From: an uncultured Pseudomonadota bacterium | Lineage (GTDB): Bacteria; Myxococcota_A; UBA796; GCA-2862545 | Direction: 5' to 3' | DNA length: 64,000 bases | Assembly: GCA_913061235.1 (NCBI GenBank) | Contig: CAJXTB010000002.1 | Coordinates: forward strand, 62,001-126,000 | Shown here: one piece after another, positions 44,021-60,643 of the stretch | How the letters are laid out: each line of letters opens with the position of its first letter | Numbering within the stretch: position 1 is the first letter of the stretch | Translations under genes and position numbers: made by a program | The notes under the pieces: model-generated | The model's input: the letters and a program-made list of their open reading frames with translations, nothing else | Told to the model about the DNA's origin: nothing | The model's database searches: none

Positions 44021-44353
44021 ATGTCCGACCGATTCCAGACATTTGCCGAGTTCTGGCCGTACTACCTGTCCGAACACGGTGACACGACGAACCGGCGCCT
44101 GCACTACGTTGGCTCCACGCTGGCCCTCATGAACGCTGCGGCGGCTATTGTGCTGCTAAACCCGTTCTTCCTGCTCAGCGCGGTGATCAGCGGCTACTTC
44201 TTCGCTTGGATTGGCCACTTCATTATTGAGAAGAACCGTCCGGCCACGTTCAAGTACCCATTCTGGTCGTTGTTCGCGGACTTCCGAATGTACTTCTTGG
44301 CACTGACTGGGCGTCTGCGCCCACACCTCGACCGAGCTGGTGTTGTCGCGTGA
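44021..44353 (+). CDS. Mpo1-like / DUF962 membrane protein
   Basis: The 110-residue product has the DUF962/Mpo1 pattern: FAEFWPYYLSEHGDTTNRRLHYVG at the N-terminus, two hydrophobic helices, then AWIGHFIIEKNRPATFKYPFWSLFADFRMY. The conserved His residues (SEHG, LHYVG, GHF) match those that bind iron in yeast Mpo1, an alpha-oxidation dioxygenase of 2-hydroxy fatty acids; activity of bacterial members is not established. GGAGA lies six bases before the ATG. The stop overlaps the GTG of the tricorn gene, so the two are coupled. Confidence 0.88.
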   Translation: MSDRFQTFAEFWPYYLSEHGDTTNRRLHYVGSTLALMNAAAAIVLLNPFFLLSAVISGYFFAWIGHFIIEKNRPATFKYPFWSLFADFRMYFLALTGRLRPHLDRAGVVA

Positions 44354-47300
44354 GCGTTCTACTTGTTGCTGCTCTTGCACTCGCCACAACCACCGGTGGT
44401 GTGCCGCGCTTTCCAGACATTCATGACGAGACTGTCGTCTTTACCGCAGGCGGCGACCTGTGGCGCGTGCCCGTCACGGGCGGAACCGCCGAGCGCATCA
44501 CGACGCATGAAGGGGTCGAGCGGTTTGCGCGAATCAGCCCGGATGGTTCGAAGATTGCGTTCACCGCAGCGTACGAAGGGGACCCCGATGTGTGGGTCGT
44601 CCCAGCAACTGGCGGAGCTGTTGAACGGCTGACCTACCACACCACCAACTCGCTCGATGACGTGGTGTGGGACTGGACCGCAGATGGTGAGCGGGTGCTG
44701 TTCGGCTCGCGTCATCAAGCCGAAGACTGGCGCTACCTTCAGCTGTACACGGTGGGTCTAGACGGCGGCTTGCCCGAGCCCGTGCTGATGTCCGACACCG
44801 GAATCAGTGCGTTCATGCCGGACGGTCGGCTGGTCTTCAACCGTAAGTTCCGAAACTTTCGCACGTGGAAGCGCTATCGCGGCGGCATGCAGCAAGATCT
44901 GTGGACCTATGACCCCGTGTCTGACTCGTCAGAGCGGCTGACCACGTTTGCTGGAACCGACACCTCACCCATGCCCCACGCAGACGGTAGCATCCTCTTT
45001 GTGAGTGACCGGCCGGACACTTCCGAGGACGGCGGCCCCGAATACAGCGCACGAAACCTGTTCCGCAGGGACAGCGACGGCACCGTCACCCAGCTGACAT
45101 CCCACACAGACTTCGACGTTCAGTGGCCGGCACTTCACGGGGACCGCGTGGTCTACATGCTCGCCGGTGACCTGCGCGTGTACGACATTCAGGCGGCAAC
45201 CGATACCGAACTGGACATCGTCATTCCAGACGAAGCCATGGGTACCCGTGCACAACGCGAAGAGTGGGACGCTGACCCATGGACGTCGAGCATTGGCCCG
45301 CAAGGCAAGCGCGTCGCGGTCATTGCACACGGCAATCTGTTCACGGTACCTGTCGAAGAAGGCAGCTGGCGAGCCATTGCCACAAACAGCGACGAGCGCG
45401 TCACGGAAGTCGCGTGGTCGCCAGACGGAAATGATCTGGCGTACATCTCCGACCAAAGTGGTGAACAGCAGATCTACCTGGCCACCCAATCCGGGGAGAA
45501 TGAACCGCGTGTGCTCACCACACTCAGCGGAAAGTGGCTGAGTGGCCTGACCTGGTCACTAGAGGGCGACCACATCAGCGTCATGGACCAGGAGTTCCGC
45601 TTGTGGGACTTAAACGTTGTCTCTCGCGAGATGCGTGAGGTCGACGTAGGCGAGCACGGTCCCGCCGGTAACGCCGCTTACAGCCATGATGGCGAGTGGC
45701 TGGCCTACCTCAAGAATGAAGACTCAGGACTGTCTGCGCTGTGGTTGTATGACGTTCGCAGTGGCGAAAACCATCGGGTCACCTCGGGTTTTGACGACGA
45801 CATTGATGTGGCATGGGACCCGGAAGGGCGGTTCCTATACTTGGTGTCCCGTCGCAACTTTGACCTGGTCACCAACACCTTCGAGCATCGCATGGTGCAT
45901 CGGATGACCGACCAGATCTATGCGCTGCGGTTGACCGAAGACGCCGAACACCCCGTTCCCACGCGGTCTGACGAAGAAGTGGAGGCAGACGGCACACCCG
46001 ATATCGATCCAGAGCCCGTGGACGAACGCCGACGCGAACGCCGTAAGCGGCGACGTCAGACCCAAGAAGTTGTGCCAGAAGCCCCTCGGGTTCGTATTGA
46101 TCTGGAGGGTCTAGCAGACCGCCTGCATCAGCTACCGATTGAGCCCGGTCGTTACGGGAATCTCGCCGCTACAGAAGACGGTGTTCTGTTCATGCAGCAG
46201 CCAGCGATTGATGACGGCAGCGACGGCAAGCTCATGCACTACTCCTTGGAAGACCAAGAGGTGGAGGGCATTGTCAGCGGTCCCGAAGGCTTCGAGCTGG
46301 CCGCCGGCGGCGACAAGCTGCTGTACATCGACGGCTACCGTCGGGTGTACGTGACCGATGCACGCGCAGATGGTGGACGTGGTGAGCGGGTCAGCCTGTC
46401 CGACCTGTCCGCTTGGACGAATCCCGAAGAAGAGTGGGCCCGTACACTCGACGAAGTGCGGCGCTACCTACGAGACACGTTCTACGACCCAGACATGCAC
46501 GGTCATGACTGGGACGCGCTGCACGCGCGGTACCAAGGCCTGCTGAGTCGGGCGACAGACACGTCAGATGTCTCGTGGCTCATTGGCGAGTACATCAGCG
46601 AGCTCAACGTTGGCCATGCGTATGCATGGGACGGATGGGACGGTCTGCAGGGCGTCACCACGGGCATGCTTGGAGCTGACTTGGTGAGTACCCCGGATGG
46701 GGTTCGCATTGAACGCATCTTTGCGGGCGAGCCGGGCAGGGACGACCGAACCTCACCACTGCGTGCGCCAGGCGTAGACGTCAGCGCTGGCGACTACTTG
46801 CTGGCCATCGACGGGCATGAGCTCGTCCTCGGAGACAATCCCCACAAGTGGTTGGTCGGGACGGCCGGGCGCTCGATTCGGTTGACCGTCAGCGCCAACG
46901 CGTCGGGAATCGGTTCGCGTGTTGTGACGGTGGAGCCGCTGTCGTCGGACCGTGAGCTTCGGTACTGGGAGGGAGCGCGTGAGCGTCGCGCCTATGTGCA
47001 CGAACAGACCGATGGACGCGTTGCCTATGTACACGTGCCAAACACGTCTTCCCGTGGGTATACCGAGTATGTTCGTGGCTTGTATGCGCAGCACCGCATG
47101 GACGGTATGGTCATTGACGTGCGCTACAACGGAGGCGGGTTCATCCCCGAGATGTTCGTCGAGCCGCTGTTGCGTCCGCACTACAACACCTGGGTGCCGC
47201 GCACTGGAGCCGACTGGCGCACTCCCGGTGTGGCTGTTCACGGACCCAAAGCGATGCTGACCAACGGGTACGCGGGTAGCGGCGGCGACGCTTTCCCTTA

Positions 47301-47619
47301 TTACTTCCGTCAGTTCGAGCTGGGGCCACTCATTGGAGAGACGACCTGGGGCGGTCTGGTGGGGCTTGAAGGCTCGCTGGAGTTGCTGACGGGAGGCGGC
47401 GTTACCGCACCGTCCTTCGCCTTCGTCAACCGAGACGGCGAGTGGGACGTAGAACGCACCGGTGTCGCACCGGACCTGCCCTTGTTGAACCTGCCAGACG
47501 ACGAGAACGCAGGCCGAGACCCACAGCTAGACGCCGCCATCGAGGCAGTCATGACAGCGCTGCAGACCTGGGAAGACCCGGTACCACCGCGTCCATCGAC
47601 CTATCCACGACGCCCCTGA
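44350..47619 (+). CDS. tricorn-type protease (S41 family)
   Basis: Tricorn proteases degrade oligopeptides released by the proteasome or other proteases. The 1089-residue product has a short signal-like start (SVLLVAALALATT), two beta-propellers of TolB/WD type (ARISPDGSKIAFTAAYEGDPDVWVVPATGG; VAWSPDGNDLAYISDQSGEQQIY), and a basic linker (DERRRERRKRRRQ). The C1 domain follows with GHAYAWDG (catalytic His near residue 755), then a PDZ domain (LLAIDGHELV) and the C2 S41 domain with nucleophile Ser in GYAGSGGDAFPYYF near residue 977. Numbering is close to archaeal tricorn. It is translationally coupled to the Mpo1-like gene. Confidence 0.93.
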   Translation: MSVLLVAALALATTTGGVPRFPDIHDETVVFTAGGDLWRVPVTGGTAERITTHEGVERFARISPDGSKIAFTAAYEGDPDVWVVPATGGAVERLTYHTTNSLDDVVWDWTADGERVLFGSRHQAEDWRYLQLYTVGLDGGLPEPVLMSDTGISAFMPDGRLVFNRKFRNFRTWKRYRGGMQQDLWTYDPVSDSSERLTTFAGTDTSPMPHADGSILFVSDRPDTSEDGGPEYSARNLFRRDSDGTVTQLTSHTDFDVQWPALHGDRVVYMLAGDLRVYDIQAATDTELDIVIPDEAMGTRAQREEWDADPWTSSIGPQGKRVAVIAHGNLFTVPVEEGSWRAIATNSDERVTEVAWSPDGNDLAYISDQSGEQQIYLATQSGENEPRVLTTLSGKWLSGLTWSLEGDHISVMDQEFRLWDLNVVSREMREVDVGEHGPAGNAAYSHDGEWLAYLKNEDSGLSALWLYDVRSGENHRVTSGFDDDIDVAWDPEGRFLYLVSRRNFDLVTNTFEHRMVHRMTDQIYALRLTEDAEHPVPTRSDEEVEADGTPDIDPEPVDERRRERRKRRRQTQEVVPEAPRVRIDLEGLADRLHQLPIEPGRYGNLAATEDGVLFMQQPAIDDGSDGKLMHYSLEDQEVEGIVSGPEGFELAAGGDKLLYIDGYRRVYVTDARADGGRGERVSLSDLSAWTNPEEEWARTLDEVRRYLRDTFYDPDMHGHDWDALHARYQGLLSRATDTSDVSWLIGEYISELNVGHAYAWDGWDGLQGVTTGMLGADLVSTPDGVRIERIFAGEPGRDDRTSPLRAPGVDVSAGDYLLAIDGHELVLGDNPHKWLVGTAGRSIRLTVSANASGIGSRVVTVEPLSSDRELRYWEGARERRAYVHEQTDGRVAYVHVPNTSSRGYTEYVRGLYAQHRMDGMVIDVRYNGGGFIPEMFVEPLLRPHYNTWVPRTGADWRTPGVAVHGPKAMLTNGYAGSGGDAFPYYFRQFELGPLIGETTWGGLVGLEGSLELLTGGGVTAPSFAFVNRDGEWDVERTGVAPDLPLLNLPDDENAGRDPQLDAAIEAVMTALQTWEDPVPPRPSTYPRRP

Positions 47620-49232: not shown

Positions 49233-52200
49233 CTACCGGCCGACTGTGACCTCGATGGACTCGGTGACGGAGCCAAAGGTCGCGGTCAGCGTCGCCGTTC
49301 CTGCGCCTGTGGCACGAACCTCGTTGGTGCCTTGCTCCACGGCCAACACACCCGCGTTGCTGCTCGTCCAGGTCACGGACCAGGTCAGGTCCAGCTCTGT
49401 GCTGTCGGCGAGCTGTGCGGAGGCGAAGAAGGCTTGAATGGTTCCCACGGTGAGTGGCTGGCCTTGAGCAATGGTCAGGCTGTCGATGCGAGCATCCGTG
49501 ACGGTCACGACCATCGGCTGCGTCCGACTTCCGTCCAGCTCACCGGTAATCGTTGCGGTACCAGGCCCCTGGGCAACCATGTTGCTGCCGCGGACGGACA
49601 CCACTCGCGGGTCAGTGCTTGTCCACTCGATGCTGTTCTTCACATTGACGAACGAGCCGTCCATCAGCACAGCGCTGGCGTCTAGGTTGACTTCTGCGCC
49701 TAGGGGCAGGCGTTCAATGAGTGGGTCACCGGTGACCATCAAGACGTCGGGTAGGGTGACGTCTACGTTGGCATTCGGCGTAATCATTGAGCCCCAGCGT
49801 GCGAAGACGCGGGCACTACCCGGAGACACACCGGTCACTCGGCCAGAGCTGTCCACGGTCAAGATCGTTGGGTCGCTCGACTGCCACTCTGCGGTATCTG
49901 TGACGCCGATGCGACCACTGTCTGCGACCGCGAACGCCTGTAGCATGGCGTCTTCACCGACTTCGAGGGACAGGGAGCGTGGCTCAAGCGTGATGCCTGC
50001 CGTGTCTGGGTTGAGAACTTCGATGCGCAGTGGCTCGGTGCGAACGTCGCCGCGACGCGCCGTGATCTCTGCGACACCCATTCCAACGGCCCGGATCTGC
50101 CCATTGGGCAGTGCCTCGATGACACTGGAGTTGCTCGAGACCCACTCGGCGTACGACGTGATCTCGCGGGCACTTCCGTCTCCATACACCGCAGTTGCAG
50201 ACAGGGTCTCTGTGCCATCCACGACCATTGCAGAGACCGGTGGGAAGAGGGTCATGCCAATAGGCGACGAGTCGGTCACACGGACGGTGTATGTCTCGGA
50301 TGACGCGCTGCCCCAGGTGGCGGTGATGTCGGTTGAGCCTTCGACGCGTGCGCGCAGCTCGCCGTCCACGGTCATCTTGGCGATGAGGCTGTCTGAGATG
50401 TCCCAGGTGACTTGCGCGCTGACATCGCGCACTGCACCGCTAGGCAACACAGCCAAGACGGTAGGCGCGATGATTTCGCCGGTTGAGTAAGCACTATCAA
50501 TACCTTGAACCACGAGGCTCTGAACGCCCAAGTCTCCAACTGTGATGTCAGCAGGCCGGAAGCGGATGCCCTGGAACTCGCCGCCAACCGTGGTTGTACC
50601 TGGCTTGATGCCTCGAACAATACCGCGCCGGTCTACGGTCGCAATGCTGGAGTCGTCACCGAACCAGCGGATGGCATCGCTCACGTCTGCAATGCGTCCG
50701 TCCGTGTAGATGGCCTGTGCGGACAGCTGGTACGAGCCATCTGGCTGGATGCTGATCTCGGCAGGCTGCACGGTCAGACCGGCAACGGGCACGTCTACGA
50801 CTTCTACACGAACTGCCTCATTGGACACGCCGTCTACTTCGGCTGTGACCTCGGTAAAGCCGACTTGGTTGGCCCGCAAGCGGCCGGTAGCGTCGATAGT
50901 GGCGACCTCTGGGCGTGAGGAACTCCAGGCGGCCTCAGCAGTCAGGTCACGCACGGCCCGGTCGGTGTAGGCACCCGAGGCGTTGAGCTGAATGACTTCG
51001 AGCGGCGCCAAGATGATGTTCTCTGGAGTCACGCGAACACGTGCGAGTCGCGCGGGACCGGTATCGAGGACGATGACGCGGGCTGTGTTCGTGTCCGGGT
51101 TGATGACCACGGTGCGTCCTTGGTCGTCAAGCAGTACCGCGTTGCCTTGCCGGTCTACAACCGACGTCCCGTCTTCGTTCAACAGTGGCTCGTACTGTGG
51201 CAAGTCCGGGGGAGACCAGCCAACCAACTCGCCGGTGTTCAAGTCGCGAACGCTCGGCAAGCCGCTGACGGGGTCCAGCACAACCACTTGCCCAGTCTCG
51301 GGGTCCGTGACCACTTCGCCTGTTTCACCGTCGACAAGCGCTTCGGGCTCGACATCCGCGACAGCAGGTTCAAACGGCTCGAAAGTACCGGTCTCGACGT
51401 CGCGGATGGCCGGCTCTTCGGTGACTGGGTCGATGACCACCTGTTGGCCCGTAGAGGGGTCCACAACCGCTTGGCCCGTCTGCGGGTCCAAGTACGGAGG
51501 CAAGGTCACTTCCATGCCTGCAGGCGGACGCCAGGGCTCGTAGGCGCCAGTTATTGGGTCACGCAGCGACGGCAGGCCGGATGCTGGGTTGAGCACAACT
51601 GGGCGGCCAGTGGGCGGGTCGATGACCGGGCGTGCAGTCTCGGCGTCTACGAAGGCAGGCGCATCGGAGCCTGGAACAGTGAACTCGCCTGCGTCAACAG
51701 CGCTCGACGGTGGCGACCATGCTGCGAATGAGCCGGTGTCCGGGTCACGCAGTGCTGGCAAGCCGGTCTGTGGGTCGACAAAGACGGGACGTTCCGTGCT
51801 CGGATCGATGACCGGTCGTGCGGTGACTGGGTCCAGGTAGGGGACCAAGTCGGCGTCCGCGACCGCAGGCTCGCCGGCATCCGTTGCCGATGCTGGAGGG
51901 CTCCACGCCGTAAACGCACCGGTGTCTGGGTCTTGCAGTGCTGGAAGACCCGTTGTGGGGTTCACAACCACCGGACGGTCGGTGATGGGGTCGATGACGG
52001 GTAGGGATGTCGTCGGGTCCAAGTAGGGAACCGAGCCGACGTCCGCGACGGCGGGTTCTCCGGCATCCGTTGCCGATGCCGGAGCGCTCCATGCAGTAAA
52101 CACCCCGGTGTCTGGATCTTGCAGCGCCGGCAGACCGGTCGCTGGGTTCACGACCACAGGGCGGTTCGTGACCGGGTCAATGACCGGCGCATTGGTCGCT

Positions 52201-54989
52201 GGGTCTAGGTACGTTGCCGCAACAATGATGTCGGGCTCTGGCGACCATGGTTGAAGGTCGCCGTTGTCGCGGTTGACGAGCGCTGGAAAGCCAGTCTCTG
52301 GGGACAGAACGACGTACTGCCCGCTCGGCTCGTCGAAGACAGGTTTGCGAGTATCTCTGTCGATGTACGGAACGTAGCCGCCAATGTCCGCAAGGGGTTG
52401 GCCGTTGTCGGTGATGATGACAAGCCGGTAGTCGACCTTCTGCATGGGGTTGTTGCTCATATAGATCGAAACGGGGGCGGTGCTGACGTTACTGCGAAGC
52501 ATGTACGTTCCGGGGGGAACATCGCGGAATACGAAGCGGCCGTTGGCGTCTGTGGTGGTCTGTAGTGCTCCCAATTGCACCACCTGGTTGGCGGCGAGCT
52601 CGTCCCCCTGACCACCACCACGACCATCCCCGTCTAGGTCCACCCAGACATCACCAGCAATTGTGCGAATGGGCTCCAAGGCAAAGTGGGCTTTTGCCAA
52701 CTGACCGGGGATGTGCTGAAAGTCAATGTTCAGCGACTGGGCCAAGTAGTTTGCTGGGAAGTCCAGTGGTGAGACCGATGCGGTGTAGCGACCGGGCGGC
52801 AGGTTCCGCCCCACACCGCGCCCGTCGATCAGCTCAACAATGGACTCTTCTTCGGTGTCACGGTTGACCAGTGTGACTGGAGTCACCTCGAGCATGGGCT
52901 CGACATTCTGAAAGACACCGTCTCGGTTGTTGTCCGCGAACACGCGAACATCCACAGTGCCAGCGTAGGTGAGTGGGATGGAGACCCGTGTTGCGGCGGG
53001 ACCGCCAATTCGCACCGTCTCACGGCCATTTGAGACAAAGCCATCTGCCGAGACAAGGATGGAGTATGTTCCGTTGGGAATGTCCCGTGCCTTGAATCGG
53101 CCTGAGTCATCAGGGGTGCCAACCCGCGTACCGCCAATATCTACACTGGCGTTCGAGACCTCAGGTTCGTCTTCATCCTGTGTGCCATTGCCGTTGATGT
53201 CTGCAAAGACAACGCCGGTGACACGACCTTCTGCGCCGAGTCTCCCGTTGAACAACTGCAGACTGGCGCCCAGAGTCAAGCGCGTGAGTGAGGGACTCCC
53301 GGCAAGTGCAAGGGCATGGAACGCTTGGGCATCAAATGAGACAGGAAAGTCGGGAGACCATCGCGCTCCGCCTCCAAAGCCGAGGGAAGGCTGGATTCTG
53401 CCGTCTTCGGGACTCGATGAGGTCTGCGTGAACAGCGAAGCGCTCAGTATGGGCTTGGTGAACGTCACTTGGGAGCGAAGCGTGTGGCGTAGACTCACTG
53501 CGTCGGAGCGGATTCGGGCGTTGTAGCGCATGGCGAAGGCCCACGGGCCTGGAGGCTGGTACCGGAACAGGACGTTTCCACCCGGGGTTCCGCGGCGGTT
53601 TATGCCGTTTTCGACTAGGGAATAGCTGTACAGCGCAGTCGCGGTAAGGCGCATGTAGCGCTGTCCGGTACTGAGGGACAACGCACCCACATGGGATTGT
53701 TTCTGTTCTGTATTGCCGGGCACGCGGGGACCGCTCTGTAGCCAGCGGTACGAGATGGACAACGACAGCGGCGATGCCACGCGAAGACCAATCTGGGTAC
53801 CAATGGTGTCCTGCTTGGTCCCAGGTGTGGTCTCGGTGTCGCCAAACCGGGTTGAGTTGCCAAAGATGCTGGTGCGGAACCGCTCCCCGCCGGTCTGGGC
53901 GATGTAGTTAATGCCGAAGGTGGACGGCCTGCCGACATTGCCTGCAAGACGAAAATCGTTGTCCGTTGCAAAAGCCGTCACATCAATGCTTGAGAAGCCT
54001 GACTCGTTCTGAACCCGTGTAGTGACGCCGACTCCCGAGCCTCCTCCGGCACGCGCGATGGCAACCGATGTGCTGACGAATCGCTCGGTTAAGATGAGGC
54101 GGGCGGAGCCAAATCCGGTGGTCTCGCGCAGTAGTGGGTTGGCGGTGGCCCCAACCGTTGCAACAGTCGCCAAGTTCTTTGTGAACTGCCAGCGACCGTT
54201 TGCGCCGGCAACCACACCACGCTGAGGAGCGGCCAAGTCGCAGCAGGTGCCGGGTCTAGCTGTACCGATCCACCCGGTGACGGCTCCGGAGGAGTCTCTC
54301 GGCTGAAAGGTAATGGAGCCGCCGTTAAAGCCGACACCACTCTGGCCGGGAATCTCGGGGGCAATGGTCACTGTGCCTTGCCCTAAGGCCCAGCCAATAC
54401 CGTGCTTTTCGTGCAGTCCCTCAAGGCGAAGGTTCGGCACACGCCACGGGGTCCCAGAGCTACGCGTTGCGTCGAACCGGCCGGTGTAGTGGTCGTCATC
54501 GTTTGCGTACTGCACATTTGCCGAGTGCATCTGCTGCGTATTGTTGAGCTGCCCTTCGGCGAGGTTGGCAGTAAAGCCGAAGCGGTAGCCGAGGCCCGGC
54601 TGATCTTGAAGACCGGCGTTGGGCACTGCCGCTTGAACCGCTTTGGGGGCGCGGTCCACGTTGAACACGTACGACTGCATACCCGATGGCATCATGACCA
54701 AGACGGTCCCGGACCCTACCTGAATCAAGTTGCCGGTGACCGAGAAGCCCTGGGGTGTCTGCTTGGCGGTGACAACCGCAGGCTCCAAGGACACCACTTG
54801 AACGGGGCCACCTAGGTTGAAAGATAGCGTCTCACCGTTGAAGACGTGAATCGGGCCGTCATCAACAATCGGCAGGCCTTCGAACTGCACGGTACTTTCC
54901 GCTGCATCCAGCTCTTGCGCCGCAGCGTCTACCAGACAACCCAAGGTCGTCAGTACGGACAGCAGTACAAGGTGGAAGATGCGGAACAT
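49233..54989 (-). CDS. giant surface protein: usher-like beta-barrel, SdrD/Cna-type domains, tandem repeats, seven Big_2 domains
   Basis: The 1918-residue product has a signal peptide ending DAAAQE and a small N-terminal beta domain. A barrel-like region of about 450 residues follows (YRFGFTANLAEGQLNN ... LGASLQLFNGRLGAEG). From about residue 588 come three regulatory or SdrD-type modules (GVVFADINGNGTQDEDEPE; VRVFADNNRDGVFQN; GDVWVDLDGDG), then about eight 55-62-residue repeats with PVIDPxTxRPVVVNP, and from about residue 1310 seven bacterial Ig-like Big_2 domains. Barrel followed by GVVFxDxNxNGxxDxxE is the layout of CS1/CooC-type fimbrial ushers. The gene lies 17 bases behind a PapD-like chaperone gene. 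An usher or surface-anchor role is inference. No clear Shine-Dalgarno sequence is seen. Confidence 0.85.
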   Translation of the reverse strand: MFRIFHLVLLSVLTTLGCLVDAAAQELDAAESTVQFEGLPIVDDGPIHVFNGETLSFNLGGPVQVVSLEPAVVTAKQTPQGFSVTGNLIQVGSGTVLVMMPSGMQSYVFNVDRAPKAVQAAVPNAGLQDQPGLGYRFGFTANLAEGQLNNTQQMHSANVQYANDDDHYTGRFDATRSSGTPWRVPNLRLEGLHEKHGIGWALGQGTVTIAPEIPGQSGVGFNGGSITFQPRDSSGAVTGWIGTARPGTCCDLAAPQRGVVAGANGRWQFTKNLATVATVGATANPLLRETTGFGSARLILTERFVSTSVAIARAGGGSGVGVTTRVQNESGFSSIDVTAFATDNDFRLAGNVGRPSTFGINYIAQTGGERFRTSIFGNSTRFGDTETTPGTKQDTIGTQIGLRVASPLSLSISYRWLQSGPRVPGNTEQKQSHVGALSLSTGQRYMRLTATALYSYSLVENGINRRGTPGGNVLFRYQPPGPWAFAMRYNARIRSDAVSLRHTLRSQVTFTKPILSASLFTQTSSSPEDGRIQPSLGFGGGARWSPDFPVSFDAQAFHALALAGSPSLTRLTLGASLQLFNGRLGAEGRVTGVVFADINGNGTQDEDEPEVSNASVDIGGTRVGTPDDSGRFKARDIPNGTYSILVSADGFVSNGRETVRIGGPAATRVSIPLTYAGTVDVRVFADNNRDGVFQNVEPMLEVTPVTLVNRDTEEESIVELIDGRGVGRNLPPGRYTASVSPLDFPANYLAQSLNIDFQHIPGQLAKAHFALEPIRTIAGDVWVDLDGDGRGGGQGDELAANQVVQLGALQTTTDANGRFVFRDVPPGTYMLRSNVSTAPVSIYMSNNPMQKVDYRLVIITDNGQPLADIGGYVPYIDRDTRKPVFDEPSGQYVVLSPETGFPALVNRDNGDLQPWSPEPDIIVAATYLDPATNAPVIDPVTNRPVVVNPATGLPALQDPDTGVFTAWSAPASATDAGEPAVADVGSVPYLDPTTSLPVIDPITDRPVVVNPTTGLPALQDPDTGAFTAWSPPASATDAGEPAVADADLVPYLDPVTARPVIDPSTERPVFVDPQTGLPALRDPDTGSFAAWSPPSSAVDAGEFTVPGSDAPAFVDAETARPVIDPPTGRPVVLNPASGLPSLRDPITGAYEPWRPPAGMEVTLPPYLDPQTGQAVVDPSTGQQVVIDPVTEEPAIRDVETGTFEPFEPAVADVEPEALVDGETGEVVTDPETGQVVVLDPVSGLPSVRDLNTGELVGWSPPDLPQYEPLLNEDGTSVVDRQGNAVLLDDQGRTVVINPDTNTARVIVLDTGPARLARVRVTPENIILAPLEVIQLNASGAYTDRAVRDLTAEAAWSSSRPEVATIDATGRLRANQVGFTEVTAEVDGVSNEAVRVEVVDVPVAGLTVQPAEISIQPDGSYQLSAQAIYTDGRIADVSDAIRWFGDDSSIATVDRRGIVRGIKPGTTTVGGEFQGIRFRPADITVGDLGVQSLVVQGIDSAYSTGEIIAPTVLAVLPSGAVRDVSAQVTWDISDSLIAKMTVDGELRARVEGSTDITATWGSASSETYTVRVTDSSPIGMTLFPPVSAMVVDGTETLSATAVYGDGSAREITSYAEWVSSNSSVIEALPNGQIRAVGMGVAEITARRGDVRTEPLRIEVLNPDTAGITLEPRSLSLEVGEDAMLQAFAVADSGRIGVTDTAEWQSSDPTILTVDSSGRVTGVSPGSARVFARWGSMITPNANVDVTLPDVLMVTGDPLIERLPLGAEVNLDASAVLMDGSFVNVKNSIEWTSTDPRVVSVRGSNMVAQGPGTATITGELDGSRTQPMVVTVTDARIDSLTIAQGQPLTVGTIQAFFASAQLADSTELDLTWSVTWTSSNAGVLAVEQGTNEVRATGAGTATLTATFGSVTESIEVTVGR
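51140..52390 (-). repeat. tandem 165-186-bp coding repeats inside the giant gene
   Basis: About eight units encode YLDPxTxxPVIDPxTxRPVV and then VNPxTGLPALxDPxTGxFxxW. Two central units of 62 residues (about 51.85-52.20 kb) are nearly identical, ending in the same PASATDAGEPAVAD linker, and outer units diverge step by step. This indicates recent unequal exchange in the middle of the array. Confidence 0.85.
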
Positions 54990-55006
54990 GATGCAGTCTA
55001 CAGGGT

Positions 55007-55834
55007 CTACAGCGGTGTAGGCTCTGAAACATCGGAGTCACTGTCTGTTACCTCAATCAGCGGAACGACGAGCGAGGTGCTGAACGGGATGGCACCCGAC
55101 TCACCGTACCGAACGGCGCCAACGACTGAGTACGTTCCGGCAGGAACGTCCATGGACCACTCCAGAGGAAACGACCCACTCTGCCCGGGAAGTAGAAAAT
55201 ACGGCGCCCGGGTGTCTAGCGACGACAAGACATCGCCGGATTCTGGGTCCTGCAGCGCCGCGACGACTCTTGGTCGCATGTGGGTGTCACCGGTATTGGT
55301 GAGGGTGAACGTGACTGTGGCTGGGGCCGCTCCGACGGGAGGGGACGCGGTCATCTCATCGACGGTCATGTCGTACGTGGTTTCAGTCGCGGACCGCAGC
55401 ATCACCGGAACCTTAAACGCAAGGCGGTTTCGTAGCCGTGTACCAGAGGGCTCATTGTCATAGGGGACGGAGCTTACGGTCAGACTTGCGAACTTGCTGC
55501 CGCTCCACGTCTCGCCGGGCTCAACGATAATCGAGAAATCAGCAGTGCTTCCAGCCGGTACAATCAACCGTGGTGGAAAGATGGACATCTGACTGCTCAG
55601 CGACAGCGGAGTGGTTCCAGAGGGCGGAAACTCACCCGACATGGTCTCAGCATTGTACCAAAAATCATCGACCCGGGTCTCAAAGGCCATGGGGACTGGA
55701 CTTAGGTTCTGTACGGTGACCGAGAAGGACGCGGCCCGTCCATTCGGCATTGTAGCGTCAACCCAAGTGGGGGTCACACCAACACTGCCTGCGACAGCGA
55801 CCTGGGACACGAGCAACAATAGACCAGTCAACAT
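55007..55834 (-). CDS. PapD-like periplasmic pilus chaperone
   Basis: The 275-residue product has a signal peptide (LLLLVSQVAVAG) and two Ig-like domains. The first contains VTPTWVDATMPNGRAASFSVTVQNLSP, an edge strand with IFPPRLIVPAGSTADFSIIV, and RLAFKVPVML where PapD chaperones have the long alternating G1 strand. Similarity to fimbrial chaperones is by layout; the invariant Arg/Lys pair was not confirmed. GGAGAG is placed four bases before the ATG at 55834. It lies between a small exported subunit-like gene and the giant barrel gene, the usual place of a chaperone in chaperone-usher operons. Confidence 0.75.
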   Translation of the reverse strand: MLTGLLLLVSQVAVAGSVGVTPTWVDATMPNGRAASFSVTVQNLSPVPMAFETRVDDFWYNAETMSGEFPPSGTTPLSLSSQMSIFPPRLIVPAGSTADFSIIVEPGETWSGSKFASLTVSSVPYDNEPSGTRLRNRLAFKVPVMLRSATETTYDMTVDEMTASPPVGAAPATVTFTLTNTGDTHMRPRVVAALQDPESGDVLSSLDTRAPYFLLPGQSGSFPLEWSMDVPAGTYSVVGAVRYGESGAIPFSTSLVVPLIEVTDSDSDVSEPTPL

Positions 55835-55860
55835 CTACTCTCCAGAAAAGGGCTGCACAC

Positions 55861-55898
55861 AAAGAAAAGCGCGCGACTAGGAACCCCCGGTCGCGCGC
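55861..55898 (-). terminator. attenuator between subunit and chaperone genes
   Basis: On the minus strand a perfect 9-bp stem (GCGCGCGAC / GTCGCGCGC) with a 12-base loop is followed by TTTTCTTT. It sits 18 bases after the subunit stop and 27 bases before the chaperone start, which would make the subunit far more abundant than the chaperone and giant protein. CTAGGAA just upstream on the transcript can pair with TTCCTAG in the loop, an alternative fold. Confidence 0.9.
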
Positions 55899-55916
55899 CC
55901 AATTCCTAGGAAAGCC

Positions 55917-56597
55917 CTATGGAACGATTGTCGGCACTGCAGTGAAGACGTAGTCGGTTTCCCAGGTGTCCGGTGCGGTCGTTGGTGCAACGATGAACGC
56001 GAGGTCAACTGGGTAGATGTCTTCGCTTTCTGCGTCACTGGTCCAGGTAGCGCATGTAGCAGCTGCACCGAGAGCGGTTGAGCCGGTGCCACCAGTCCAT
56101 GTGGTGGACTGGGCGCCGCCGTCACAGGCCCACTCAGCGGAAGGAGCACCGGCGGTAGCGCCAGCGGTTCCTGTTGGCTGTGCACCATTGATGGTGACAA
56201 TGGCAGATGCCAAGCCGGTGTAAGTGAGCTGAACCTGGAGCTCAGCAACGTAAGCGGACGACGCTGCCGGAGCGGCGTAGACGCTGCCCTGGCCGCTGGC
56301 ATTGAGGCCACCGGAAGAGACTTGGCCGAAGTTGACAGTACCGAAGTCGTCATCGCCGCCGAAGCCGTTACCCAGGGTGTCGCCGACCATGGTGGTGGTT
56401 CCGCGAACTTCGTCGTTCACTTCGAGGATCATGGTACCCGTTACTTCAGCAACGAGTTCAACGGTGACTTGCGCCGTTGAGGTGACTCCGGTGATGGAGG
56501 TATTCTGGTCGGTGATTTCTTCTGCCATAGCCATGGTTGGCAAGGCCAAGATTCCAGCACCGGCGGCAGCAGTCTTCAGCATTCCACGAAAGGTCAT
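55917..56597 (-). CDS. exported major-subunit-like protein (fimbrillin candidate)
   Basis: The start ATG 56597 has GGGGAGAA seven bases upstream; a longer start at 56624 is rejected. The 226-residue product has a signal peptide (MLKTAAAGAGILALPTMAMA, cut before EE). The mature part is low in basic residues and rich in Thr, Ala, Gly and Ser with beta-type alternation (VTVELVAEVTGTMILEVNDEV, YVAELQVQLTYTG), plus two Cys that could form one disulfide. Together with the PapD-like gene downstream and the attenuator, this fits a pilus or spore-coat-U-type structural subunit. No specific family is recognised. Confidence 0.72.
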   Translation of the reverse strand: MTFRGMLKTAAAGAGILALPTMAMAEEITDQNTSITGVTSTAQVTVELVAEVTGTMILEVNDEVRGTTTMVGDTLGNGFGGDDDFGTVNFGQVSSGGLNASGQGSVYAAPAASSAYVAELQVQLTYTGLASAIVTINGAQPTGTAGATAGAPSAEWACDGGAQSTTWTGGTGSTALGAAATCATWTSDAESEDIYPVDLAFIVAPTTAPDTWETDYVFTAVPTIVP

Positions 56598-56621: not shown

Positions 56622-56644
56622 CACCGACGTGGTAGCCGTCGGTG
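56622..56644 (-). promoter_or_regulatory. leader hairpin of the subunit gene
   Basis: A perfect 8-bp inverted repeat (CACCGACG / CGTCGGTG) with a 7-base loop lies 25 bases upstream of the subunit ATG, between the AT-rich probable promoter stretch (56650-56750) and the start. It may stabilise the 5' end of the mRNA or bind a regulator. Confidence 0.55.
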
Positions 56645-57090: not shown

Positions 57091-60000
57091 CTATGGAGGG
57101 CTAGCCTGCCCGTCATCGTTCGGACCCCAGCAGAAAGCCGTGCCGTCAGACTCGATGCCGCAGGAGTGATTGGTCACGTCTGCGCTCACGAACACGATCG
57201 GATTGCCATCAGAGTCCACGGTTGGAGGCGTTGCCCGGCCACCCGTGTCGAAGCCCCAACAAGTAGCCGTGCCATCGGCTCGGACTCCGCAGGTGTGTAC
57301 AACGCCCGCAGCGACAGACACGAAGTCATTGCCTGCAGCCGGAGTGGCACGGTCCCCGAAGTTGTTGCCCCAGCACTGGATGCTCCCGTCCAAGAGCAGG
57401 GCGCAGTTGTGGAGGAACCCTGCAGTAACGGAGAGCACGGATCCTGTTGGACGTGGAAGTGACGTTCTACCTGTGACCTGGTTCTGCCCGTTGTTGCCCC
57501 AGCACAGAATCGCTCCGCTCTCGCGCACCGCGCACACATGGCGCTCGCCAACAGTGACTTGCCTGAACTGACCCGTTGATGGGGCGTCTGAGATGACGCC
57601 ATCGCTGTCGTTCGAGTCTCCCCAGCACTCAATGCCAGAGTTGGGGGTGGTAGCGCAGGCGAACCGAACGCCTGCACCAATGGAGGTAAACTCACCGGCT
57701 GGTGGATGGAACTGTTCGCCCAGTGCGGTCTGTGCGCCCCAACAGGCCAGAGTGCTGTCCTGGGTGATTCCGCAGGTGTACTCAAAGCCGCCGTCGATAT
57801 CGAGGAATAGCTGACCCGGGACCTCTAGACGGCCAAGCTGATTCAAGCCCCAACACGCAACCTCGCCACGCCGGTCGAGCTTACAAGAGTGAACGCTTCC
57901 GGTTGCCACCTTGGGATCGATGGACGGCAACGTGAACACGCTGGCTGAATCGCTCGGACCCGTGTCGGTACCATCGCTCGGTGTAGCGGTACATACCCAG
58001 GTCTCCAATCCGCCGAACTCAGAGGAGTCCACTGTGGACGACTCTGCTTCGTTGGTAGCGCCAAAGAACGGGCTGCCCTCAACGGTCCACGAGAAGGTGT
58101 AAGACACGGGATCCCCATCGGGGTCGGTGCTGCGCGTTCCCAACGTACAGACCAAGTCATCCAAGCCAGCGAGTGGGAATTCGGGGTCGATCTCTAGGAC
58201 CGGACCGGTCGGGGGAGAGTTGCCAATGACCACCGAGTCGGAGAGTGGGGTGCCGTCAAAGCTGCCATCCGAAGGGGTCACTGTGCACACGACGGTGTCG
58301 CCCTTTTCGTAGCCGGTGGACAGGCTCGAACTGGTGGAGACTTGGCTACCGTTCACGGTCCATGCGTACCGAGACTCATCAGCCTCGCCTTGAGGGTCGG
58401 AGAAGCCTGTGTATTCGCAGCTGAGGGGGGTGGCCGCTGTTGCGACGTTGGGCCGTACATCGACAGAGTCGATGGTAGGAGCGGACTCAACAACCGTCGC
58501 GTTCGCTGACAGTGAGTTGCCGTCAACGTCGCCGTCGTTCGCAGTGACTACGCAGGTGAGTAGGTCTCCGGGGGCAACCGTCTCTGTCAGCGTTGCGCCC
58601 GTTCCAACGTCAACGTTGTTGATGCGCCAAGTGACGGTGGACTGCGGCGTGTCATTGTCTGCGTCGGTGAAGTTCCACGAGCACTGGATGGTGTCGTTGC
58701 CTTCCGGTGCGGTTGGATTGATGGCAACGTCGGCGACTTGTGGCGGCGTGTTCAGAATTGTCGCGTCGCCCGAGCTCACGGGGAGGCCTTGAGTTGAGCC
58801 GTCGGTCGGTGTTGCCGTGCACTGAACAATGTCGTCTCGGCTGAACTGGTCACCAGTCAAGGTCGACGTTGTGTATGGCTGCGCGCTGCCGTTGATGGTC
58901 CAGCCGTAGACGAAGGTAACGGTGTCGCCGTCTGCGTCGGTTCCCAGCCCCGGTGCACAGATTACGGTCGAGGACTCAAAGAAGGGCCCTCCCTGAATGG
59001 AGACATCATCGAGGACTGGGGCGGTGTTGCGAATCACAACCGTGGATGACGTGGTGGGACCGGCACCGTAGGCGTCGGAAGGGGTCACCTCAACGCGCCA
59101 GGTCTCACCCTTGTTTGTGGCAGAGGATGGAACGGTGGCGCTGGTTTGTGAAGGACGCAGCTCGCCATCTCGGTACCAGACGTATTCGTAGGTGATGTTG
59201 TCGCCGTCTGGGTCGACGGACGGCGTGTCGAGCTGTACGGTCAGGGCGTCGGATGTTGCCGGAGTCCCTGGGGTGATGACGACGTCTGCAGGACCCGGAA
59301 GGCCATTGACCCGGAAGGACACTTGGGCCTGGGTCACCAAGTCGGAACGGTCGGTGGCGGTGAGCGTGACGGTGTGTTGTCCCGCGAGCAGGTCAGACCG
59401 GTTGAAGGTGGTGGTTCCATCGGTAGATGCGGGCGAGTCCCATAGCGGGGACACCACTCCTTGGAAGTCGTCCTGCCAACTGAGGGTGAGGGACGCCGCT
59501 GCGTCTTCATTGTCTGAGACCAACGCAGTGAACTCGATGGGAACGCCTGCGGCGTAGACCGAGCTGGGCTGTGGTGAACTGATCTGGATGGTTGGCGGTG
59601 AGTCGACCGTCAAAAAGATGGTGCTGGTGCAGGTCAGTCCGAATTGATCTTCGGCTTCAAACGTGATGAGGTGTGTGTCATTCGTCAGACTGTTGAAGGA
59701 GAATGTGACCACACCACTACTTTCAGGGGTACTGACGCCCATTTCGCCGTCTTTGTCTGACGTCCAAGTGGCCGTGAGGAAGTTGCTCGCATCGTCTGGG
59801 TCCGACACCTGAGCCCTAAATACAACCCGCTCGCCGGAGCGAACCACATCTCCGTCCAGTGGAAAGACGATGCCAAGGCACTCTGGCGGACGGTTCGCCG
59901 GGCCTACGCGAATGACCGTGGTGTCAAAGGTCTGGTTTCCGGCGCTGTCTTCGACGGTAAGCCGGATGAGGTGGTCTCCCTCAGTCAGAAACCCAATGCC

Positions 60001-60567
60001 GTCGACTTCTCCTTCATTGGCGTCTCCTGCAACCCTGACAGTGCCATCTACGGACAGCGCCCCATCGATGTTGGATTCCCATGAAACGAGTAGGTCTACC
60101 GGCTCATCCTCTACGTCAGAGACGGTGCCCACGAACTGGATGGGCTGGTCTGCGTAGTACTGGGCCGTTGGGTCGAGACTGGTGATCTCAGCGGAGGGGG
60201 CGGCACTTGGTCGTGCCCAGAAAATCTCCACAGCTTCTGTTCGCGAAGACCCATCGGACACCAAAAAGGTGATCTCTGTGGGACCGGCGGGAAGCGCAAT
60301 GTCGCAGAAGGCATCCCCGATCTCGTTGGGCGAACTTGGCGGGCACAGTTCTTCGTCGTTCGCGGACCAGGTGACAATCAGCTCGTCGTACGAGTCGTCG
60401 AGGTCCTGGGCTACGCCACGGAATCGCTGCGAAACGCCTTGAAACAACGTCTGGTCGACGGAAGGGGAGCCAATGGAGGCGGTTGGTGGAGCGTTGCGGA
60501 ACCCGAGGGAGCCTTCCGAGCAACCAACAAGAAGCGCAGACAGGCAGATAGCGCGCACAGCAGACAT
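57091..60567 (-). CDS. lipoprotein with PKD/Ig-like domains and a seven-unit RCC1-type propeller
   Basis: The start ATG 60567 has GGGGAGAG four bases upstream on the minus strand and gives a lipoprotein signal ending LLVGCS. The 1158-residue product begins with a domain shared with the interrupted cysteine-repeat lipoprotein (GFRNAPPTASIGSPS...QRFRGVAQDLDD). Four or five PKD/Ig-like units follow (ITSLDPTAQYYADQPIQFVG and relatives), then repeats with TVxCTxTPSDGxxxGxP. From about residue 890 come seven RCC1-type repeats (VAAGVVHTCGVRADGTATCWG and relatives), enough for a closed propeller. It is probably on the cell surface; its ligand is unknown. Confidence 0.88.
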   Translation of the reverse strand: MSAVRAICLSALLVGCSEGSLGFRNAPPTASIGSPSVDQTLFQGVSQRFRGVAQDLDDSYDELIVTWSANDEELCPPSSPNEIGDAFCDIALPAGPTEITFLVSDGSSRTEAVEIFWARPSAAPSAEITSLDPTAQYYADQPIQFVGTVSDVEDEPVDLLVSWESNIDGALSVDGTVRVAGDANEGEVDGIGFLTEGDHLIRLTVEDSAGNQTFDTTVIRVGPANRPPECLGIVFPLDGDVVRSGERVVFRAQVSDPDDASNFLTATWTSDKDGEMGVSTPESSGVVTFSFNSLTNDTHLITFEAEDQFGLTCTSTIFLTVDSPPTIQISSPQPSSVYAAGVPIEFTALVSDNEDAAASLTLSWQDDFQGVVSPLWDSPASTDGTTTFNRSDLLAGQHTVTLTATDRSDLVTQAQVSFRVNGLPGPADVVITPGTPATSDALTVQLDTPSVDPDGDNITYEYVWYRDGELRPSQTSATVPSSATNKGETWRVEVTPSDAYGAGPTTSSTVVIRNTAPVLDDVSIQGGPFFESSTVICAPGLGTDADGDTVTFVYGWTINGSAQPYTTSTLTGDQFSRDDIVQCTATPTDGSTQGLPVSSGDATILNTPPQVADVAINPTAPEGNDTIQCSWNFTDADNDTPQSTVTWRINNVDVGTGATLTETVAPGDLLTCVVTANDGDVDGNSLSANATVVESAPTIDSVDVRPNVATAATPLSCEYTGFSDPQGEADESRYAWTVNGSQVSTSSSLSTGYEKGDTVVCTVTPSDGSFDGTPLSDSVVIGNSPPTGPVLEIDPEFPLAGLDDLVCTLGTRSTDPDGDPVSYTFSWTVEGSPFFGATNEAESSTVDSSEFGGLETWVCTATPSDGTDTGPSDSASVFTLPSIDPKVATGSVHSCKLDRRGEVACWGLNQLGRLEVPGQLFLDIDGGFEYTCGITQDSTLACWGAQTALGEQFHPPAGEFTSIGAGVRFACATTPNSGIECWGDSNDSDGVISDAPSTGQFRQVTVGERHVCAVRESGAILCWGNNGQNQVTGRTSLPRPTGSVLSVTAGFLHNCALLLDGSIQCWGNNFGDRATPAAGNDFVSVAAGVVHTCGVRADGTATCWGFDTGGRATPPTVDSDGNPIVFVSADVTNHSCGIESDGTAFCWGPNDDGQASPP

Positions 60568-60643
60568 GAATCTCTCCCCAAACGTGGGGCCACCATACGT
60601 CTGCGCAGTGGCATCACGCAATAGCCATCCAAACGACGGGGGA

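Follow-up and report, generated by a model that had tools for sequence, protein, structure and literature searches.

Can a set of genes be assigned to the chaperone-usher pathway when its largest product matches no Pfam usher family, and if so, what kind of usher would it encode? The question is raised by three minus-strand genes in the stretch of DNA analyzed here (64,000 nucleotides, hereafter the window), which a first-pass annotation had described as a possible divergent chaperone-usher surface system. The open reading frames were recovered exactly where that annotation had placed them, and encode an exported protein of 226 amino acids (55917-56597, minus strand; ATG start at 56597, end at 55917), a chaperone-like protein of 275 amino acids (55007-55834, minus strand) and a giant protein of 1918 amino acids with a long C-terminal tail (49233-54989, minus strand). 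An alternative in-frame GTG start at 56624 would lengthen the first product to 235 amino acids, and 17 nt separate the chaperone ORF (55834-55007) from the giant ORF (54989-49233). Where an attenuator had been proposed after the first gene, a GC-rich hairpin and U-run was found between the first and second genes (55861-55898, minus strand), likely a partial terminator. Its 9-bp GC-rich stem is followed by TTTTCTTT, and none of 200 shuffled sequences was as stable (MFE z = -3.1); the hairpin was not listed by a simple terminator scan because its loop exceeds 8 nt.

The chaperone was assigned through intermediate families. A Pfam scan of the 275-residue protein returned nothing significant, PapD_N gave no direct match to it or, when run against the whole genome, to any other protein, so the link to PapD had to be made through intermediates. 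In searches with the window chaperone alone, five genomes of the class yielded homologues and the own genome yielded two paralogues (a genome-contig scan with the same single sequence gave no matches), and a six-row HMM of the chaperones added three more paralogues, for a total of six in this genome, together with copies in further genomes. The six-sequence HMM matched the chaperones of two other loci, L045 (E = 6e-11) and L046 (8e-7). The former matches PapD_N (PF00345) above the cut-off (2.7e-8), the latter falls just below it (1.1e-4), and the L045 chaperone has a DUF4402 subunit upstream (3.8e-13) and is followed by an usher-like protein that contains a plug. Profile-profile comparison (hhalign) aligned the chaperone family with the L045 and L046 chaperones over 245 columns (E = 1.5e-10), and with E. 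coli EcpB over 185 columns (E = 3.4e-5, 72% probability). Rows of an EcpE control, truncated by the end of its stretch and translated out of frame, were disregarded in this comparison. In a by-eye alignment, the probable donor (G1) strand of the window chaperone, NRLAFKVPVMLRS, matched the L045 region MRMSVSLPVIYRR. This chain of transitive profile matches supports the identification of the protein as a PapD-type periplasmic chaperone, in line with the original proposal. In the tree it grouped with the copies of clusters C17 and C18 (support 99/97), apart from the plug-type chaperones, and on a long branch (1.96).

Conservation of the three-gene order in other Myxococcota had been set beforehand as a test of the annotation, and the linkage proved to be conserved, with 15 loci elsewhere. 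A scan of 84,980 species, queried with an alignment of closer relatives, retrieved eight loci in Myxococcota, other Deltaproteobacteria/Proteobacteria MAGs, Verrucomicrobia, and one further bacterium; searches in Verrucomicrobia and in the phylum of that bacterium yielded seven more usher-like loci. At the 15 loci outside the own genome, which belong to Myxococcota, Verrucomicrobia and one further phylum, the chaperone is directly followed by an usher-like protein of 840-1150 amino acids, and in most of these loci one or two genes upstream of the chaperone encode small, beta-rich exported proteins. The own genome contains five further chaperone clusters, on C17 (L009), C18 (L010), C19 (L039) and C1 (L040, two clusters), three of which have an usher-like protein. 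The C18 cluster consists of a subunit, a chaperone and a 193-residue Big_2 protein with the barrel absent, so the third gene does not always encode a barrel, and C1b has a subunit and a chaperone with its own usher absent. Together with the long branch that the window chaperone shares with C17 and C18, such clusters could indicate that the window set is itself decaying, the giant protein being a chimera with lost or reduced usher function while the active usher resides in C19 or C1. We regard this as very improbable, given a 1918-codon reading frame without stops, intact signal peptides, and a clean operon layout with an attenuator. Gene order varies in C17 (L009:7255-8180), which runs subunit, usher, small lipoprotein, second subunit, chaperone. 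Paired ORFs resembling M16-type (pitrilysin-like) peptidases were noticed by eye downstream of the usher-like gene in L090, L091 and L093, which represent several members of one phylum.

A functional chaperone-usher-like reading requires an outer-membrane barrel in the giant protein. The Pfam scan of this protein returned no Usher (PF00577), PapC_N, TcfC or CooC_C, and its relatives matched none of PF00577, PapC_N, PapC_C or TcfC; FimD, included as a control, matched PF00577, PapC_N and PapC_C. The relatives share a layout of two NEW3/Ig-like N-terminal domains, a long middle part without assignment, and two CarboxypepD_reg/SdrD_B domains. Instead of the two Ig/NEW3 domains, the window protein has a predicted periplasmic domain (residues about 26-125; 54615-54914, minus strand) that lacks a Pfam match and is similar to paralogue L009. 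Next comes the barrel region (residues about 126-585; 53235-54614, minus strand), for which no sequence similarity to FimD or EcpC was detectable; a single-protein search with this region returned no other protein of the own genome. L009 matched two stretches of the window protein, residues 51-225 (3e-6) and 542-831 (2e-18), and the usher-like family at 2e-15, and a profile of both proteins aligned with the last strands and the first C-terminal module of the family (hhalign, E = 1.3e-8). Two other paralogues, L039 and L040, matched the family over the whole length of the family (6e-81 and 2e-59). By sequence, the window protein therefore appears to join the usher-like family through L009, at both ends of the barrel. 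The barrel region ends in a beta-signal-like TLGASLQLF just before the first module, a short pattern of a type that also arises by chance elsewhere in the protein. The excess of amphipathic strands (z 2.5, against 4.5 in FimD, 3.6 in the L047 barrel and 3.8 in the L009 barrel) is weak evidence, since the Big_2 region also scored 2.0 and EcpC 0.7. An AlphaFold model of the window barrel, built from a noisy alignment, had a mean pLDDT of 45.5 and was left out of the fold search; its residues 330-520 form runs of long hairpins, mostly at pLDDT 50-75. On these grounds an outer-membrane barrel in the window protein is likely.

A plug is a defining feature of known ushers, and its presence was assessed in relative L047, whose AlphaFold model, built with seven sequences, reached a mean pLDDT of 81. 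The model comprises two Ig domains (residues 10-222), 26 strands (232-689) and two C-terminal prealbumin-like domains, and the longest gap between barrel strands is 15 residues, leaving no room for a plug. The plug check thus yielded a plug-less relative, with the window protein itself modelled at the low pLDDT given above. Foldseek placed FimD structures first (E = 4e-14). VIA-align placed MtrB first (Z 21.5, rmsd 5.0, 420 residues), followed by PapC (16.6) and FimD (16.3), while many barrels of unrelated kinds scored 14-16; absence from its list does not exclude a known barrel or usher family. The model predicts a closed barrel of large size that has no plug and is followed by C-terminal domains like those of ushers, a shared fold alone being no proof of function. 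MtrB is the 26-stranded barrel of an electron conduit, where it sheathes a cytochrome, and its likeness to L047 is one of shared fold only; unlike MtrB, the window protein has a chaperone and subunit as neighbours, with no haem protein adjacent.

The nearness of a plug-less 26-stranded fold to MtrB nonetheless suggests a reading in which the giant protein is no usher, and a porin-like or cell-wall-tethered barrel holds the small exported and chaperone-like proteins in a periplasmic or surface layer without forming a fibre. Ig domains standing at the N-terminus in place of PapC_N, a tail of SPOR domains in one relative, and subunits that are not recognizable pilins would all fit such a protein. 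This explanation is nevertheless quite unlikely in our judgement, because the chaperone is homologous to those serving plug-bearing ushers, the C-terminal domains are common to ushers, and the gene order is that of a pilus operon. The exported 226-residue protein itself has a signal peptide, paired cysteines and a Tyr-containing C-terminal strand, and is beta-rich. It matched no Pfam family in the scan, nor did the subunits match any pilin family, and it was aligned with the subunits of paralogous and distant clusters. From its gene position and this pattern we infer that it is pilin-like.

We next compared the locus with described systems. Published ushers have a 24-stranded barrel, a plug, a periplasmic N-terminal domain and two periplasmic C-terminal domains (PMC8410936). 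The window locus resembles FimC-FimD and PapD-PapC in its PapD-type chaperone and linked small exported subunits, and the ushers of type 1 and P pili in having beta-sandwich C-terminal domains after the barrel (two there, three here); FimD of the type 1 pilus is also the top Foldseek match of the family model. It differs from type 1 and P ushers in having no PF00577, PapC_N or PapC_C, in its Ig-type or unassigned N-terminal domain and long C-terminal tail, and in that the modelled relative is plug-less with 26 rather than 24 strands. The first-pass annotation had instead likened the giant protein to CS1/CooC-type ushers. EcpA-EcpB-EcpC of the alpha (CS1/ECP) group does share the order subunit-chaperone-usher, the weak profile match between the chaperones (EcpB) is near full length, and the CooC_C domain of EcpC overlaps CarboxypepD_reg, the module type of the window protein. 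However, neither the TcfC plug domain (PF16967) nor CooC_C (PF15976) was present above the cut-off in the window protein, while the EcpC control has both, and so the likeness did not hold; CooC_C was seen below threshold in paralogue L040 (17 bits against a cut-off of 29, E = 0.005). The accompanying statement that a GVVFxDxNxNGxxDxxE module follows the barrel in known CS1/CooC-type ushers does not hold for EcpC, which, unlike the window protein, is without the D-x-N-x-NG-xx-D-xx-E module; the module does occur in DUF4402-associated ushers. The DUF4402-associated L045, its relative L046 and the plug-bearing L097, L098 and L100 have homologous chaperones, the same subunit-chaperone-usher order, and ushers with C-terminal SdrD_B/CarboxypepD_reg modules that carry the same D-x-N-x-NG-xx-D motif. 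Unlike the window protein, their ushers retain an Ig insert that, judged from the sequence, resembles a plug, and they have no Big_2 tails. Since the PF00577-type usher match and the plug (in the family model) both fail, and the locus is not of the CS1/CooC type, we classed it among divergent variants akin to the chaperone-usher pathway rather than as a member of a named clade. The chaperone-usher reading is partly supported, as a divergent and apparently plug-less variant.

Beyond the barrel, the giant protein continues with three prealbumin-like SdrD_B/CarboxypepD_reg modules (residues about 586-860; 52410-53234, minus strand), recognized by Pfam and the family profile as putative equivalents of usher C-terminal domains, so that the barrel region is followed by more than two beta-sandwich domains. 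Tandem D-P-x-T-G-rich repeats of 52-62 amino acids (residues about 861-1310; 51060-52409, minus strand) and seven Big_2 domains (residues 1311-1918; 49236-51059, minus strand) complete it. Pfam matches to the modules and Big_2 were well above chance (1.2e-12, 4.4e-12 and 2.9e-36), and the seven Big_2 copies were resolved at 1312-1914, each with E < 1e-28 against an HMM of themselves. The numbers of modules and Big_2 domains originally proposed were therefore upheld, whereas the eight repeats came down to seven clear copies and a degenerate eighth. Each of the four usher-like proteins in the own genome has a Big_2 tail (7, 4, 5 and 5 domains), and such tails were found in none of the five relatives tested. 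True copies of the D-P-T-G repeats occur only in the window protein. Repeat matches in G018/G019 (L059, L060) were rejected as an unrelated protein with D-P-x-T-G repeats, which has a zinc-finger-like start and an AgmX-like end.

The location of this tail bears on the earlier suggestion that one polypeptide acts as usher and adhesin. Big_2 domains are common on surface proteins and adhesins, and in inverse autotransporters such as intimin and invasin an N-terminal 12-stranded barrel family exports an Ig passenger. By analogy, the repeats and Big_2 domains could be threaded through the barrel and exposed at the surface, a scenario to which the length of the tail (1060 aa) and the recurrence of Big_2 on every usher-like protein of the genome lend some weight; seven Big_2 domains may also be too long for the periplasm. 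Against this, the tail comes after C-terminal domains that are periplasmic in FimD and PapC, and the even number of strands (26) in the relative's barrel keeps both ends periplasmic, although this number comes from the L047 model. Moreover, the giant protein did not match the inverse-autotransporter barrel family in the Pfam scan, and the barrel would need to transport the tail as well as the subunits. At the same place in relative L054 (L054:2957-6418, from a marine bacterium), the two C-terminal modules are followed by two SPOR domains (4.6e-19), which, being peptidoglycan-binding, would tie that usher to peptidoglycan. A periplasmic tail is suggested by the topology of ushers, by the even number of strands in the L047 model and by these SPOR domains. 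We thus consider an exposed usher-adhesin unlikely: of the original claim, the usher part is partly supported and the adhesin part is weakened, and the repeats and Big_2 domains are most likely a periplasmic spacer or cell-wall tether.

Taken together, we consider it reasonably probable that the three genes form the operon of a divergent chaperone-usher-like fibre-assembly system, with a barrel of an apparently plug-less family and a tail that is most likely periplasmic. In such a system the subunit, judging from its signal peptide, would be exported by Sec, and the chaperone, whose homology to PapD is supported, would cap it in the periplasm by lending its G1 strand. The complex would then be passed to the outer-membrane barrel, which in the well-modelled member of the family is predicted to be about 26-stranded and plug-less. 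By usher topology, the N-terminal domain and the three prealbumin-like domains of the window protein would face the periplasm, and the tail that follows them would most likely act there as the spacer or tether. Donor-strand exchange would join one subunit to the next, and the chain would be pushed out via the pore; the attenuator may ensure that more subunit than usher is made. More tentatively, these loci could represent a distinct multi-phylum chaperone-usher-like class whose plug-less barrel is gated by other means (the N-terminal Ig domains or the cell wall), with the usher tail here serving as a wall tether or making an usher-adhesin.

In the publications consulted, ushers close their wide pore with a plug inside the barrel. 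A plug-less family related to them, and conserved together with its chaperone and subunits across Myxococcota, Verrucomicrobia and one other phylum, would open the way to asking how a pore of this kind is gated and how the plug came about, and would extend these fibre-assembly systems to environmental bacteria in which Pfam usher models miss them; the topology of the tail is in turn a question that can be put to the test. The open-licence literature searched gave no account of a plug-less usher, or of the usher-like family found here, and together with the Pfam and PDB libraries it is the basis for these claims of novelty. Two other large proteins are encoded nearby. Directly upstream on the same strand (57091-60621, minus strand) is an exported protein of 1176 amino acids with PKD domains and five RCC1 repeats, and on the plus strand (44350-47619) is a protein of 1089 amino acids that begins with propeller-like repeats and whose C-terminal part resembles, by eye, a tricorn-type or S41 protease.
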